NCBI GenBank assembly: GCA_025360015.1
Contig: JANYCZ010000023.1
Coordinates: 62,001 to 126,000, forward strand
Direction of reading: 5' to 3'
Origin: Verrucomicrobiota bacterium
GTDB lineage: Bacteria > Verrucomicrobiota > Verrucomicrobiia > Verrucomicrobiales > Verrucomicrobiaceae
Length of the DNA stretch: 64,000 bases
Under the pieces are notes generated by a model, which was not told the origin of the DNA, searched no databases, and saw only the letters and a program-made list of their open reading frames with translations. This document shows positions 39,751 through 46,723 of the stretch, one piece after another. A program made the translations under genes and the position numbers. Within the stretch, counting starts at the first letter, position 1. Each line of letters starts with the position of its first letter.

Positions 39751-40632
39751 ATGTCCGCCACCAGCCTCCTCAAACAGCACCTGCAGCAGCGTCAGTTGCA
39801 GGGGAAGACGCATGTCGCGATGCGCCCGGGGACGATGGAGAAACTGAGCGGGCTGGGGCGTGAGCCTTTGGTTCGCGCCGTTGCCGAGCCTGAGCCGCTG
39901 AGGTCTTTGGGGGCGGCACCTGCACCTGCTGCGCGTATCATTCGCGACACGCCGCCTCCGCCGGAGACGAAGAAGGTGGAGTTGCTCGAAGTGGCGGGGG
40001 CGACGATCGAAGAAAAGCTCGCGGCGCTGCGTGCGATGGCGGAGACGTGGGAGCCTGCCCTTGCGATGACGGGTCTGCGCAAGACGATGGTCTTTGCCGT
40101 GGGCAGTGCGCAGGCATCGCTGATGTTTGTGGGTGAAGCACCGGGAGCGGAAGAGGAAAAACTGCGCGAGCCGTTTGTGGGTCCGGCAGGGCAGAAGCTC
40201 ACGGCCATCATCAAGGCGATGGGGCTTGACCGCCCGCAAGTGTACATCAGCAACATCTGCAAATTTCGTCCTGCGATGGACAACCAGGGAAGTGGCAACC
40301 GCAAGCCGGAGGCTGCGGAGATGCGCGCCTGCCTGCCGTTTGTGCTGACGGAGATTGATCTCATCAAGCCGAAGGTCATTGTGGCGCTCGGTGCCACGGC
40401 CGCGGAAGGGCTCGGTATTCCTGGCAGTGTGGGCGGTCTGCGCGGGCGGTTTCACAGCACCAGCGGCATTCCGACGATGGTCACTTATCATCCGTCTTAC
40501 CTGCTGCGGGAGGAGAAAACGGGGGATGGCATTCGTGCCAAACGCGCGGTGTGGGAGGACATGCTCAAGGTCATGGAGCAGCTCGGTCTGCCCATCAGTG
40601 AGAAGCAGCGTGGCTATTTTCTGGCAAAGTAA
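39751..40632 (+). CDS. Uracil-DNA glycosylase superfamily (family 4-like) protein lacking canonical Fe-S cysteines
   Basis: The 293-aa protein has motif 1 GEAPGAEEE (129-137), FVGPAGQKL (142-150) and the C-terminal motif TYHPSYLLR (245-253), all typical of family 4 uracil-DNA glycosylases, which remove uracil from DNA. The N-terminal ~95 residues are an extra Pro-rich region. In canonical family 4 enzymes a CxxC pair precedes motif 1; the aligned positions are Glu101 and Leu104. Only Cys170 and Cys194 remain, and Cys170 is shifted. It lies between the permease (51 bp) and a molybdopterin enzyme (29 bp), all on the plus strand. Confidence 0.85.
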   Translation: MSATSLLKQHLQQRQLQGKTHVAMRPGTMEKLSGLGREPLVRAVAEPEPLRSLGAAPAPAARIIRDTPPPPETKKVELLEVAGATIEEKLAALRAMAETWEPALAMTGLRKTMVFAVGSAQASLMFVGEAPGAEEEKLREPFVGPAGQKLTAIIKAMGLDRPQVYISNICKFRPAMDNQGSGNRKPEAAEMRACLPFVLTEIDLIKPKVIVALGATAAEGLGIPGSVGGLRGRFHSTSGIPTMVTYHPSYLLREEKTGDGIRAKRAVWEDMLKVMEQLGLPISEKQRGYFLAK

Positions 40633-40661: not shown

Positions 40662-41882
40662 ATGAAGGCCAAAGCAATCTCACGTCGTGATCTGTTCAGG
40701 CTCGGCACCGCAGGCGCTGCGGTGCTCGCGAGCACTGAACTGCAGGCGGCAGGGAAGAAGGCCGGGCCGGTGTGTGAGGACGGCGGCTGCTGCATCACGC
40801 CTTCGGGGGATTTTTACAATGTGGAGCGCGGCAATCCGCTGCCGTACAAGCTGCCTATCGAGAAGCAGCGGGAGATCGGCATGGTGCGGGAGACGTGGCA
40901 GCTTGAAGTCATCGCAGACCCGACGAGCAATGCGAAGATCGAGCATCCCATGCTGCGCAGCAATGGCACGGCGCTGACGTTTGAGAAGTTGATGGAAATC
41001 GCGAAGACGAAGGCGGTCAGCTACCTAAAGGTCATTACCTGCAACAACCTCGCCGATCCGCTGGGGCATGGGCTGTGGGAAGGTGTGCCGCTACGCGATG
41101 TGCTGTGGCTTTGCGGGCCGGTGGAAAACCTGCGACATGTCTGGTATCACGGTCATCACAACGAGGAGCCAAAGCAGATCTTCAAATGTTACCTGCCGAT
41201 GAACCGCGTCTTTGAAGATCCGCCCGGGGAACTGCCGGTGATGCTCTGCTACAAGCTCAATGGCGAATTTCTCAGCGGAGAGCGCGGTGGGCCGGTGCGC
41301 ATGATTGTGCCGGAGGCGTATGGTTTCAAATCGGTGAAGTGGCTGCAGCGCATCGGCTTCACCAATGCGCATCAGTCCGATGATACGTATGCGAACGGCA
41401 ACAACGACATCAACTCGTGGCTCAAGACCTTTGCGCGCTTCGGCGATCTGCCGGACAAGCTCAGCGCGAAGGATGAACTGACGCTGCATGGCAATGCGCA
41501 GGTGGGCATCTCAGGGCTCAAGCAGGTGCAGTACTGGCTGCGGGATGTGAACACACCGCTGCCCGCGAACGACCCCCACTTCACCCAAGCGCCGTGGCAG
41601 GAGGCGCAGATCGTGCCCTTTGATGGCGGCGGCATTGCGGGCTTTAAAGGCGCGCCGCTGCACCCGGTGCAGTTTGATCCCGTGACGCGCAGGCCGCGTG
41701 AGTGGCCCATGCGACACACATTGTGCCGCTGGATCGCCAAGCCGGTCAGGCTTGCGGCTGGCAAGTATGAGCTGCGCTGCCGCACGGTCGATGCGAATGG
41801 CCATGCGCAGCCGATGCCGCGTCCGTTTCCGAAGTCCGGGAAGAACCACATTCAGAAGGCGCTGGTGGAAGTGGTGGCGTGA
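40662..41882 (+). CDS. Sulfite oxidase-family molybdopterin oxidoreductase
   Basis: The 406-aa protein has a Tat-like signal (SRRDLFRLGTAGAAVLAS) and an oxidoreductase molybdopterin-binding domain: the Moco-ligand candidate Cys127 in VITCNNLADP, the HVWYHGHHNEEP segment, and ERGGPVRMIVPEAYGFKSVKW. A C-terminal beta domain (~300-406; YELRCRTVDANGHAQ) matches the Mo-co dimerisation domain. This is the SoxC/sulfite dehydrogenase branch. No cytochrome or haem subunit is adjacent. The product probably acts in the periplasm; the substrate is unknown. Confidence 0.88.
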   Translation: MKAKAISRRDLFRLGTAGAAVLASTELQAAGKKAGPVCEDGGCCITPSGDFYNVERGNPLPYKLPIEKQREIGMVRETWQLEVIADPTSNAKIEHPMLRSNGTALTFEKLMEIAKTKAVSYLKVITCNNLADPLGHGLWEGVPLRDVLWLCGPVENLRHVWYHGHHNEEPKQIFKCYLPMNRVFEDPPGELPVMLCYKLNGEFLSGERGGPVRMIVPEAYGFKSVKWLQRIGFTNAHQSDDTYANGNNDINSWLKTFARFGDLPDKLSAKDELTLHGNAQVGISGLKQVQYWLRDVNTPLPANDPHFTQAPWQEAQIVPFDGGGIAGFKGAPLHPVQFDPVTRRPREWPMRHTLCRWIAKPVRLAAGKYELRCRTVDANGHAQPMPRPFPKSGKNHIQKALVEVVA

Positions 41883-41909: not shown

Positions 41910-44090
41910 TTATGAGGAAAGGATCAGCTGCCCCTGCAGTACGCTGTGGAGAGTCTGCAGCAGGGTTTCTGTGGTGTAGGGTTTGGGAATGAAGTGCTTG
42001 ACGCCTTCCTTGGTGGCCTTGGCCGCGTTGATGCTGGTGCTCAGGCCGCTGGCGGCAATGATGCGCACCTGCGGATTTAAACTCATCAGCACCTGGATCG
42101 TTGCCGGCCCGTCCATCAAGGGCATCATCATATCTGTGACCACCACGGCGATCTCCTCTTTTCGACTGGCGTACAAGGCCGATGCCTCCGTGCCGTCGGC
42201 TGCCAGCAGCACCCGGTAGCCGAAGGCCTCCAGGATCTGCTGGACGACCTGTCTCACATCGGCCTCATCGTCAACCACCAGCACCAGTTCGCCGTGGCCG
42301 CGTCGCAGTTCGGTTTGCACGCATGCCTCCACCCCGGTGGATGCTGCTGTATGAGCTGGGAGACACACAAGAAACTTGGTGCCTACGCCAGGTACGCTCT
42401 CCACATGGAGAAAGCCATGATGGCTTTTGATGATGCCCAGAGAGGTGGACAAACCCAAGCCGGTGCCTTTGCCGAGTTCCTTGGTGGTGAAGAAGGGTTC
42501 GAAGATGCGCTCGATCACCTCCGGGGGCATGCCGGTGCCGGTGTCCTCCACTTGAATGACTATATACGGTCCGGGCGCGCCTTCGCCGTTGGGGCCGGCG
42601 TGGTGTTCATCAATCATCAGATTGCAGGCAGAGAGCTTCAATACGCCGCCGTCGGGCATGGCATCCCGCGCATTGACGCAGAGATTGAGCAGGACCTGGT
42701 GGAGCTGGGTGGGATCTCCCTGCACGGCCCACAGGTCCGCCGGGATCTCGCTGCGGACCTGGATGGTCTTGAGGAAGGTTTCATTGGCGATTTTTTCGAT
42801 CTCTTTGATCAAATGGCCGACCTGCACAGCCAGCTGCTTCCCTTCCATTCCGCTGGCAAAGGTGAGCAACTGCCGGACCATGCCCGCGCCGCGCTTAACG
42901 CTGCTTTCCATGGTCGAGAGCACTTTCATGTCCCGCTGATCCTTCTCGCGCAATTTCAGCAGCTCGATGGACATGAGGATGGGGGTCAGCGCATTGTTGA
43001 GGTCATGGGCGATGCCGCCAGCCAGGGTGCCGATGCTGTCCATGCGCTGGGCGCGCAGCAACTGCTGCTCGAGTTTCTTCTTTTCAGTGATGTCGGTGTT
43101 GATGGCGAGGATGCCCTGCGGCTGACCGGCGGAATTGCGCAGCAGGGTCCAGCGCGCCTCAACCAACAGCTTGCCGCCCGCGCGGGTGACCTGCTGGAGC
43201 TCACCCGTCCACTCGCTGAGTCTGACGATGCCGGCGACAGCCGTCTCAAACGGGGTGACCTCCCGATAGAGCAGCTCGGAGGCGCGGCGTCCGATGACTT
43301 CCTCGGCGGCCCAGCCGTAGATCTTTTCAGCGCCTTTATTCCAGTAGGTGATGCGGTGCTCCAGGTCGCTGACCACAATGGCGTGGGTGGTTTTGTCGAG
43401 CAGGGCGGCCTGCTCGCGAAAGCATTGCTCCAGACGCCCGCGCTCCGCCATTTCATGCCGTAGGCTTTCACAAGACAGTCGTTCTTTTTCGCGGCTGCGC
43501 ACAGCTTCCTCCATGGAGGATTCCAGCTCCTGCGTGCGCAACTGCACCCGTGCTTCGAGGTCGTTCATGAGACCTTTGAATTCCTGCTGCGTCCGCCATT
43601 TTTCCGTCAGGGCGTTGGCCAGTTGCAGCACCTCGACGGTGTCGAAGGGTTTTTTGAGGATGAGCAGGCGGTCGCGCGGTTTGATCTGCTCCTGCATGTC
43701 GCTCCATGAGTAGTCGGAGTAGGCGGTGCAGATGACGATCTGCAAGTCCGGGCAGATGGCCCAGATCTGCCGGGTCGTTTCGATGCCGTCCCAGCCCGGC
43801 GGCATGCGGACATCGACGAAGGCCATGGTGTAGGGACGCTTCTCATCCAGCGCACGCTGGATGAGGTCCAGCCCTTCCTGACCTTGGGAAGCAGAATCCA
43901 CTTCGTAAACGACGCCTGCTGCGATGGCGGCGGGCGCATCGCCAAAGATGGCGGCTTCGTCCGCCTCGATGCCGCGTGCGTTCGCCGGGACATCAACCGG
44001 CACAAGGATTTTACGGAAATCCTCGTGGATTGCCGGGTTGTCATCAATGATCAACAGTCTGCGGTTTTTGATGAGATCGACGGGCTGCAT
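41910..44090 (-). CDS. Hybrid histidine kinase: REC-PAS-HisKA-HATPase-REC
   Basis: The 726-aa soluble protein begins with a receiver domain (~10-160; phospho-acceptor candidate Asp93 in FVDVRMP, with an insertion at ~30-65), a coiled coil (~165-225), a PAS domain (~232-340), HisKA with His362 in GGIAHDLNN, an HATPase domain (~465-590) and a second receiver (~605-720; Asp653 in VVTDMMMP). This layout suits a multistep phosphorelay. It is 8 bp downstream of the membrane-bound sensor gene, so the two are co-transcribed, and the first receiver may take phosphate from that kinase. Confidence 0.94.
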
Positions 44091-44098
44091 ACGGTTTA

Positions 44099-46501
44099 TT
44101 AGGATGGGAGTGCTACCGGAAGTTCGAGAGTGAAGCTGGCGCCGCGGCCGGTGCCGTCGCTGTGGACACTGAGCTGGCCGCCCATTTCCTTCGCCGCATT
44201 GGCCGCGCTATGAAGGCCGAAGCCGTGGCCATCTTTTCGAGTGGTGAAACCATGGCCAAAAATGCGCGTGAGGTTCTCCGGGGGAATGCCCACGCCATTA
44301 TCAATGATGGATATCCTGACCCGGCCGTCGCCGTTGGACGAGCGCATGATCATGCGCTTGTCGGTGCGGCCGGACTCGTCGCAGGCATACTTGGCATTGC
44401 GGATGAGATTGACCAGGATCTGCAGCACCTTGTGTTTTTCCACGGGGATGGGAGGCACCGCCGCGAACTCGCGGATGGTTTCGACGCCATGGCGATCCAG
44501 CGCGCTGGTGTTCATGCGCAGGGCGTCCTCAACCAGATCGTTGACCTGGACGGTTTCCACGAGACCAGAGACACGGGCGTAGGTCTGCTGCATGGCGATG
44601 ATCTCTTTGACGTGCTCGACGTTCTTGGAGAGAGCGGCGGATTCCTTGAGCAGCTTCTGGTTTTCGCCATCGAGAAGGTGCGCCAGTTTGACGATGAATC
44701 CAGGGACAAGGCTGCCCTGCGGATGGGTGGTGAGGAATGCAACCAGGTCCGTGCGGTGCTCCTCCAGCAGGCTGGCGGTGCGGAGGAGGCTGGTTGTTTT
44801 TGAATGGCGGAGGATGTCCTGCGTAAGCGTGGCGGAGACATTCATGCTGTTGAGCACGTTGCCCACGTTGTGAAGGACGCCGGTGGCGACTTCCGCCATG
44901 CCTGCCTGCCGGGAAGTGTCCAGCAGCAGCTTGTGCATGTTTTGCAGCTCTTCTTCCGCCCGTCTTCTCTCGGTGATGTCCTGCGAGGTGCCAAATACTT
45001 TGACCGCCCCCCTGCCATTCGCCGCCAGCACGACTTCACCGCGTTTGTGGATGACCCGCTCCGTGCCGTCAGGCCGCAAGAGCCGGTGCTCAAAACTGAA
45101 GGGCTGCCCTTCCTGCAGCGCTCGCATCATGGTCGCCTCGGCCATTGCGCGATCCTCCGGGTGGATGAACCTCATGGCGGCTTCGTGGCTCATGGCCTGT
45201 TTGCCTGGTTCCAGGCCGTGGATCCGGTAGTTTTCATCTGACCAGACTGCTTTGCCGGATGCCATGTCCCATTCCCAGCTGCCTACGCGGGCAATGATCT
45301 GAGCCGTTGCAAGCTGCACCTCGCTGCGTCTCAGTTCTTTTTCCGTCCGTTTGCGCCCCGCTATTTCGCACTGCAGGCTTTCATTGGCGGACTGGAGTTC
45401 CTCCGCCTGTCTGCGCAAGGGGCCGCTGATGCTGCGGGTGATGAAGGTAACGAAGCCGACGGCGGCAAGAAGGGCGAGGGCTGCCACCATCAGGCTTCTG
45501 GCGCGGCGCTGCTCGTAATATTCGATCCGCGTTTGCAGAAACGTGTCCAGCTCCTCGGCCGCAATGCGCCAGAGGTTAAAACTGGCTGCACGGGCCTGGC
45601 TCCCCGCAGCCACATACTCGGCCGCCGTCACGTCCATACGTTCCGACCCGACCAGATGGGTCGTCAGGCTGATGAACCGCCCGGTGGCGTCAGAGTATTC
45701 TTTGAGCGCGGGCGGCACTCTGCCTTGAAGAGTGGCGCTGCTTCCGTAAAAATTTGCGTCTTCGTTCAAGGCGGTTTGCAGGCTGCCGACGATCCGGTCC
45801 AGATCCGCTTCCTTCAGCAGCGTGGCGTAGATGGCGAGCTGCTGCCGCTCTGGATTGGAGATGGTCTGCCGGTTGAGGATGGCTGCTCCAAAGGCGAGGA
45901 CCGCCGCGAGACGATCCTGGGTTTGAGGCAGGCCCAGCAGGGTCACGTCCATCAAGTAATAGCTGTCCAGGTCGGGATCGAGGATGAGATTGGACTGATC
46001 GCCTGCGTGAGTGATCATCATGCGCACGTCCGCCACCAGGTGCTGGTGCTGCGCAGCACAGTCCTCCGGCTGAAGCCGCCCCAGCCCGGCTTTCATTTCC
46101 TCCCACTCCCTCCGGACCGTAACGGCTCGGTAATGCTCCCGATGGCGTTTGGCCAGGCCCTCATCCGTAAACTGAAGGTCGGCATTCAGCCGGGCATCCA
46201 CGGTTTCTAATGCATTGAACGCCGCGTCGATTTGAGCCTGTTTCTTCGCAAGCTGCTCGCGGATCGCCGGATCGCCGGCGCCGGCGGTTTGTGCCAGCAT
46301 GCGATGTTGAGGAATCAACTCCAGCAGGTCTTCCAGGGGCCGCTGGTACTCATTGCCCTTTTTCTCCAACTGGGCGAACTCAATGTTTGCATTGATGCCC
46401 GTGATGAAGAAATAGAGCATCAAGGAATCCGGCATTACAAAAAAGATGCTGATGAGCATCAGCTTTTGAGAGACCTTCAGACTGGCAAACCATTGTTTCA
46501 T
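44099..46501 (-). CDS. Membrane-bound PAS sensor histidine kinase
   Basis: The 800-aa protein has TM1 (~15-37, LMLISIFFVMPDSLMLYFFI), a ~300-residue helical periplasmic domain, TM2 (~344-366), a PAS domain (~400-510; SWEWDMASGKAVWSDE), and a kinase core in which the usual HisKA box is replaced by GVLHNVGNVLNS (His ~543), followed by an HATPase domain (INLIRNAKYA-like N-box, DNGVGIP, GHGFGLHSA). An ATG at 46501 is chosen over a TTG at 46579. It is the first gene of a two-gene operon with the hybrid kinase. Confidence 0.93.
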   Translation of the reverse strand: MKQWFASLKVSQKLMLISIFFVMPDSLMLYFFITGINANIEFAQLEKKGNEYQRPLEDLLELIPQHRMLAQTAGAGDPAIREQLAKKQAQIDAAFNALETVDARLNADLQFTDEGLAKRHREHYRAVTVRREWEEMKAGLGRLQPEDCAAQHQHLVADVRMMITHAGDQSNLILDPDLDSYYLMDVTLLGLPQTQDRLAAVLAFGAAILNRQTISNPERQQLAIYATLLKEADLDRIVGSLQTALNEDANFYGSSATLQGRVPPALKEYSDATGRFISLTTHLVGSERMDVTAAEYVAAGSQARAASFNLWRIAAEELDTFLQTRIEYYEQRRARSLMVAALALLAAVGFVTFITRSISGPLRRQAEELQSANESLQCEIAGRKRTEKELRRSEVQLATAQIIARVGSWEWDMASGKAVWSDENYRIHGLEPGKQAMSHEAAMRFIHPEDRAMAEATMMRALQEGQPFSFEHRLLRPDGTERVIHKRGEVVLAANGRGAVKVFGTSQDITERRRAEEELQNMHKLLLDTSRQAGMAEVATGVLHNVGNVLNSMNVSATLTQDILRHSKTTSLLRTASLLEEHRTDLVAFLTTHPQGSLVPGFIVKLAHLLDGENQKLLKESAALSKNVEHVKEIIAMQQTYARVSGLVETVQVNDLVEDALRMNTSALDRHGVETIREFAAVPPIPVEKHKVLQILVNLIRNAKYACDESGRTDKRMIMRSSNGDGRVRISIIDNGVGIPPENLTRIFGHGFTTRKDGHGFGLHSAANAAKEMGGQLSVHSDGTGRGASFTLELPVALPS

Positions 46502-46723
46502 TTCAGGAATGGAAAAGTGTTTTCCGACAGGAATGGCAGCAGAGCCGCCGCCGACCTTTTGCAAAGCCGGACACTTCAACTTCGCTAAGTTAAGCCGCAG
46601 CGGCGAAAGGAGACGATAAGTAAAGGCTTAAAAAGAAGGTTGTACTTTCGCAGGGGTGCGCCGGAGAAAACTTGCCGTCAAAAAGAGGCCAGCTCGTGAC
46701 AAGAAAGGGCGTGACCGGCCCGG

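Follow-up and report, generated by a model that had tools for sequence, protein, structure and literature searches.

The locus and the protein it encodes

The window, by which we mean the whole stretch of 64,000 nucleotides that was analysed, carries on its forward strand a gene for a uracil-DNA glycosylase (UDG) of the family 4 type, the closest named relatives of which (identity no higher than 88%) belong to Prosthecobacter and other Verrucomicrobia MAGs. The source of the gene is a Prosthecobacter-like verrucomicrobium. The features are as follows, with residues numbered along the window protein:

39751-40632, + strand: family-4-type UDG gene, 293 amino acids plus stop, without the [4Fe-4S] ligand set
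39751-40011, + strand: N-terminal extension, approximately residues 1-87 (AlphaFold2)
40048-40059, + strand: W100-E-P-A103, site of the family 4 CxxC (alignments)
40132-40146, + strand: motif A, GEAPG, residues 128-132 (alignment)
40252-40254, + strand: N168, aligned with the conserved uracil-pocket Asn (alignment)
40258-40260, + strand: C170, a Cys outside the ligand columns (alignment)
40264-40266, + strand: F172, site of the third Cys ligand (alignments)
40297-40299, + strand: N183, aligned with the Asn of the NR.P loop (alignment)
40330-40332, + strand: C194, the sole ligand position that remains Cys (alignments)
40489-40509, + strand: motif B, HPSYLLR, residues 247-253 (alignment)
40662-41882, + strand: molybdopterin oxidoreductase-domain protein, directly downstream of the UDG
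41910-46579, - strand: two adjacent PAS-containing histidine-kinase genes, one with two receiver-domain stretches

A repair operon was considered and rejected, the flanking genes being those of an ABC permease, the oxidoreductase-domain protein and the two kinases. Of 67 loci, 14 have the permease near the UDG and 11 the oxidoreductase, and all of these belong to close relatives.

The protein matches the UDG superfamily (PF03167 in Pfam, E 2.6e-34) and scores 142.6 bits against the NCBIfam model of family 4 UDGs (TIGR00758), above its cut-off of 125.3; against the UdgX model (TIGR03914) it reaches 132.3 bits, below the cut-off of 189.95. By phmmer its top solved relatives are the family 4 enzymes of Thermus and Thermotoga, with the Thermus structure 1ui0 matched at E 6.2e-32. 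In the part of PMC10359453 available to us, family 4 is marked by the motifs GE(A/G)PG and HPAAVL, family 5 by GLAPA and HPSPLN, and SMUG1 (family 3) by GMNPG and HPSPRN. The window protein has the family 4 pair, with GEAPG as its GE(A/G)PG and HPSYLLR as its HP..L; it has neither the SMUG1 nor the family 5 motifs, and UdgX is set aside on both its unreached cut-off and its differing motifs. The four cysteines that hold a [4Fe-4S] cluster, another hallmark of family 4, are lacking, and a ‘family 4’ annotation need not mean that a cluster is present.

The AlphaFold2 model of the protein has a mean pLDDT of 88.2, and its best Foldseek matches are 1l9g, 1ui1, UdgX entries, 1vk2 and 4zby; the match to 1ui1, at a TM-score of 0.89 by target length, places it within the UDG fold. 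Across residues 91-110, the region of the missing cluster loop, pLDDT is 96-97, and in the four-Cys relative L071 it is 89-91 at residues 111-130, a weak comparison of a single pair. The N-terminal extension, put at some 95 residues in the original prediction, is indeed present at about 87-95 residues, with predicted helices at 3-16 and 28-36 and a low-confidence linker at 36-58, and it evolves faster than the UDG domain. It is, however, general in the class: relatives with all four cysteines carry one too, so that the extension is unconnected with cluster loss and was rejected as its companion. A stretch near the N-terminus of the family-A DNA polymerase of phage phiLo (PDB 9qhs) also matches the window UDG, at E 2.9e-5 by sequence and 1.7e-7 by fold.

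Ligand positions and active site

The ligands Cys13, Cys16, Cys84 and Cys100 of the Thermus UDG (1ui0 chain numbering) align with W100, A103, F172 and C194 of the window protein, on which a phmmer pairwise alignment and MAFFT alignments of 78 and of 182 rows all agree. Since C170 and C194 are the only cysteines in the protein, no alignment whatever could yield four Cys ligands, and a misalignment that conceals them is ruled out. The original prediction that the usual Fe-S ligands are absent thus stands, as does its view of C170 as shifted away from the ligand columns and of C194 as the one that fits. Its placement of the CxxC sites at Glu101 and Leu104 was one residue off, the true positions being W100 and A103, a correction that leaves the conclusion on the missing ligands unaffected.

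The catalytic motifs had been called intact, and they are: GEAPG (128-132), F142, N168, N183 and HPSYLLR (247-253), with its H247, are all in place. N168 occupies the position of the conserved uracil-pocket Asn and is presumably the reader of uracil. The Asn of the NR.P loop, with which N183 aligns, is the catalytic N89 of Tth UDG in the accessible part of PMC10359453. Conservation extends across the one-Cys rows, where F142 is kept in 64/64, N168 in 62/64 (the exceptions being Ser in L030, of the same genus, and His in L091), E129 in 62/64 (Asp in the other two), H247 in 62/64 (one of the two exceptions being a gap) and N183 in 56/64, with eight rows departing from it; Cys4 is likewise kept in 56 of the 64.

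Distribution and order of ligand loss

Ligand sets are given below as four-letter codes, the residues at ligand positions 1-4 in order, so that the window protein reads WAFC and a complete set CCCC. Among 30 loci of the same genus there are 19 WAFC, 8 SAFC and one each of AAFC, SIFF and SIQF, and Cys1, Cys2 and Cys3 are all absent in 30/30; the single locus from a genome of the same family reads NVYC. The same-order tally, which covers part of the second copies per genome, holds 41 rows at 40 places (L032 and L137 being one place): 16 WAFC, 8 WLYS, 3 WLFS, 2 GAFC, 2 CCHC of the UdgX type, and one each of CVFC, -AYC, SAFC, CCFS, APFC, GAYC, SIFS, DCFC, DTYS and --AC, with CCCC in none of the 41. 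Ligand loss is lineage-wide. The window gene is under purifying selection, with a dN/dS of 0.10-0.17 in 15/15 comparisons with genus relatives (Nei-Gojobori), lower in the domain and higher in the N-terminal extension. Sequencing error and a pseudogene were both dismissed on this low dN/dS and on the recurrence of the same losses in every same-genus locus.

Close relatives that keep the cluster ligands, to which the original prediction had pointed as evidence against itself, exist in part. Those with four cysteines are found, but in other orders and classes; nearer by, CCYC is read in L053 (a Phragmitibacter of the Verrucomicrobiaceae, 65-66% identical where matched) and CCFC in L058 and L062 (Verrucomicrobiales), and therefore three-Cys forms are still found among near relatives. 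The CxxC is kept by none of the same-genus relatives read.

Elsewhere in the class, 38 loci outside the order comprise 14 DCWC, 10 CCCC, 6 CCWC, 4 CCHC (UdgX-type copies), 2 HCWC, 1 NCWC and 1 CCWS; a further locus, G151, reads CTWN. In 17 relatives from these other orders (L145, L148, L153, L157, L159, L161-L165, L168, L170, L172, L174-L176 and L179), Cys2 and Cys4 are kept, Trp stands at position 3 and Asp, His or Asn at position 1, an arrangement that could serve a different metal site. UdgX-type copies (L097, L146, L149, L166, L177, L183 and L190) read CCHC in 7/7 cases.

Beyond the class, the full set is the rule. A survey of the phylum found a family 4 match in 148 of 154 genomes, 96 of them in other classes, where the best match per genome was read; CCCC is present in 93 of these 96. 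The first 86 loci gave 85 CCCC, with G175 ending at a contig end before the CxxC, and the other ten genomes gave eight (seven of family f25, plus G095), together with G178, whose match is split over two contigs that show CCC and C, and G135, which reads CCAL, two ligands being lost, and has degraded active-site motifs as well. The proteins of the seven f25 genomes (L274-L280) have all four cysteines but are without motif A and the pocket Asn, a decoupling in the reverse direction, with ligands retained and the catalytic motif gone. Outside the phylum, a family 4 UDG from Patescibacteria (L098) reads WCYC, apparently by independent loss.

The order of events was read from a quick tree of 127 of the 182 rows, built with the four ligand columns blanked and supported by SH-aLRT only. 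It does without four rows that are incomplete or odd (L026, L054, L055 and L184), and also omits the majority of the near-duplicates at genus level, part of the outgroup and another 13 rows that are near-duplicates or UdgX copies. Of its 124 inner branches 44 are drawn open (SH-aLRT below 80), a single row keeps the chosen outgroup from forming one full side of a branch, and L096 and the UdgX rows are a meeting point of long branches. The family 4 UDGs of the class form one clade of 104 rows (SH-aLRT 99), and its 11 CCCC rows all fall outside a clade of 93 rows without Cys3 (support 82). One branch of the latter, whose named rows are from Opitutales, Puniceicoccales and the like, has Trp at position 3 in 42/42 rows; the other, of 51 rows (Verrucomicrobiales and the like), has Phe in 41, Tyr in 8 and Leu and Gln in one each. 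At a minimum, and with rows from related genomes being non-independent, changes between Cys and non-Cys number 12 at position 1, 9 at position 2, 3 at position 3 and 7 at position 4; the three at position 3 fall on the UdgX branch (His), on one Patescibacteria row and on the stem of the 93-row clade. From these counts and the division of the clades, loss within the class was stepwise on this quick tree with its not quite clean outgroup: Cys3 went first and once, and Cys1, Cys2 and Cys4 followed repeatedly.

At the far end of this range lie 17 rows with no ligand Cys at all, in which the site of N168 is His in 14 (many of them closely related), Tyr in one and Asn in two. His is found there in 0/101 four-Cys rows of that alignment. 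The pattern has an exception in L276, a four-Cys f25 protein with His, whose motif A is gone. On the tree His arises at least three times, and any change from Asn at least four times. The His and Tyr rows comprise 11 second copies in same-order genomes of 2.2-3.3 Mb and four genus-level orthologues. The second copies (L132, L134, L136, L138, L142, L258, L260, L263, L265, L267 and L270) have exchanged the pocket Asn for His, once for Tyr, and several read TDAPG or GDAPN at motif A and NPSYLLR at motif B; they possibly have a new base specificity. In the orthologues (L056, L057, L059 and L061) all four ligands are lost and the Asn is His; they lie beside surE and yraN, as SAFC-type members do, and nothing else in G003 and G024, the genomes of two of them, matches the window protein. 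Such zero-Cys, Asn-to-His relatives are better candidates for a new activity than the window protein, and concrete ones for new glycosylase specificities.

A probable cluster-free glycosylase, and its place among known systems

In our estimate there is a probability of about 0.85, judged from sequence, that the window gene encodes an active family-4-type UDG that works without an iron-sulfur cluster. The cluster-free glycosylase of the original prediction is well supported at this level by the absent ligands, the conservation of their loss throughout the genus, the conserved active site, purifying selection and a genome in which nothing else matches family 4 and nothing matches Ung. The gene is present in 50 of 56 genomes searched and in 43 of the 44 good ones (own genome included), and the Ung model TIGR00628 matches 0/56 of them, the same model matching 6 of 14 control genomes. 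A single other PF03167 match lies in the own genome, SMUG1-like by its GMNPG motif, with no NCBIfam family name and with relatives in 55/56 genomes; the window enzyme could be weak and this protein the main uracil enzyme. Clusters have not been given up in general, because a protein of the own genome that we take to be MutY-like keeps C-x6-C-x2-C-x5-C, presumably its cluster motif, and genome-wide cluster loss was rejected on that ground. The usual motif of endonuclease-III-like proteins is this same C-x6-C-x2-C-x5-C; the Nth-like (endonuclease-III-like) protein of the own genome (L210) has a Cys-rich C-terminus with a different spacing.

In such an enzyme, uracil would be flipped from the DNA as in other family 4 members, stacked on F142 and read by N168, and the glycosidic bond would be cleaved with the aid of motif A (E129), N183 and H247. 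The loop that the cluster pins in other members would here be held by ordinary packing. On the quick tree, the third Cys gave way once to an aromatic residue, and repeated losses of the remaining ligands came after. F172 at the third-ligand site and W100 at the first probably fill the place of the cluster, although the Ser or Ala that replaces W100 in same-genus relatives counts against its part in this. We infer, then, an active protein that has no metal of any kind and in which packing stands in for the cluster. Against it, a 2012 paper by Engstrom et al. reportedly credits, in its title, the cluster loop with efficient recognition of uracil; the eight one-Cys rows that depart from N183 and the Ser of L030 at the site of N168 count on that side too. 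In the part of PMC5295032 available to us, Cys-to-Ser changes in the family 4 UDGs of Pfu (Pyrococcus) and Afu (Archaeoglobus) cost 40% of activity and leave about 60%, the cysteines of SacUDGV (family 5) are not completely essential, and the cluster is held mainly to stabilise the enzyme; ‘clusterless’ MutYs exist as well, as the accessible part of PMC11078426 has it. A cluster-free enzyme is believable because these mutants keep activity, the cluster is read as stabilising and MutY offers a precedent. No prior description of a cluster-free family 4 UDG, and no report of such a form among Verrucomicrobia or Akkermansia UDGs, was found in a literature search that took in few subscription papers and is weak evidence that none exists.

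The conservation of Cys4 in the one-Cys rows could also speak for another metal centre, either a mononuclear metal or an inter-subunit cluster, held through C194, C170 and non-Cys ligands, and the other-order relatives in which Cys2 and Cys4 stand beside a position 1 of Asp, His or Asn (the 14 DCWC, 2 HCWC and 1 NCWC among the 38 loci) may point the same way. C170 is not kept, however, several same-order relatives reading NIVK for NICK; W100, A103 and F172 would be unusual ligands, and other relatives have lost Cys4 as well, all of which makes such a centre improbable. The loss of a cofactor can accompany the loss of function, and a second uracil enzyme, the SMUG1-like protein, is at hand, so that the protein might have become a DNA-binding or structural factor. 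We think this very improbable given the high conservation of active-site residues in the one-Cys group, the purifying selection and the f25 proteins, which are without motif A and keep four cysteines, and in which active-site decay and ligand loss are thus uncoupled.

A new activity, the other suggestion of the original prediction, finds no support for the window protein itself. Most zero-Cys relatives do have His for the pocket Asn, but N168, F142 and motifs A and B, the recognition and catalytic residues, are those of four-Cys family 4 enzymes, and a changed base specificity is hardly to be expected here. The reading of an active, cluster-free uracil glycosylase remains the preferred one.

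A wider and tentative reading, which we consider possible but rather doubtful as a whole, is that a single class holds an ordered natural series of cofactor loss from four cysteines to none. It would run from four-Cys enzymes to forms with an aromatic plug at the third ligand, whose three cysteines may hold an open cluster; to Asp/His-Cys-Cys forms that may hold another metal; to cluster-free uracil glycosylases like that of the window; and to zero-Cys orthologues and paralogues, their pocket Asn now His, that would excise something other than uracil. If this were true, it would have been the plug at position three that rendered the cluster dispensable and opened the way to new specificities. 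As to whether the [4Fe-4S] cluster of family 4 UDGs serves stability, DNA search or redox signalling, relatives that shed it in a traceable order, with the cluster motif retained in the MutY-like protein of the genome, would give a direct test.

Among known systems, the family 4 UDGs (Thermus thermophilus UDGA, 1ui0/1ui1; Thermotoga maritima, 1l9g/1vk2; Sulfolobus tokodaii, 4zby) are the top PDB matches when compared by sequence and rank among the leading ones when compared by fold. They share with the window protein the fold, motif A as GE(A/G)PG, motif B as HP..LLR, the catalytic Asn and the stacking Phe; unlike them, it is without three of the four cluster ligands, has a long N-terminal extension and bears a loop after KFRP that is six residues longer, a trait that class relatives with four cysteines have too. 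UdgX (Mycobacterium smegmatis, 6ail and mutants) is similar in its fold and in a longer loop at the equivalent place in the chain, but has GEQPG where the window protein has GEAPG, and a KRRIH loop with a nucleophilic His where the loop of the window protein, KFRPAMDNQGSGNRKP, has no His. BdiUng (Bradyrhizobium diazoefficiens, 5gn2) is a UDG-superfamily enzyme of family-4-like fold with GQDPA as its motif A; at Foldseek rank 40 and TM 0.36-0.39 it is no close relative of the window protein, whose GEAPG excludes it from that class. The ‘clusterless’ MutYs, as far as the available part of PMC11078426 describes them, are like the window protein in belonging to a kind of base-excision glycosylase of which some members lack the cluster ligands, and differ from it in the unrelated HhH fold of MutY.
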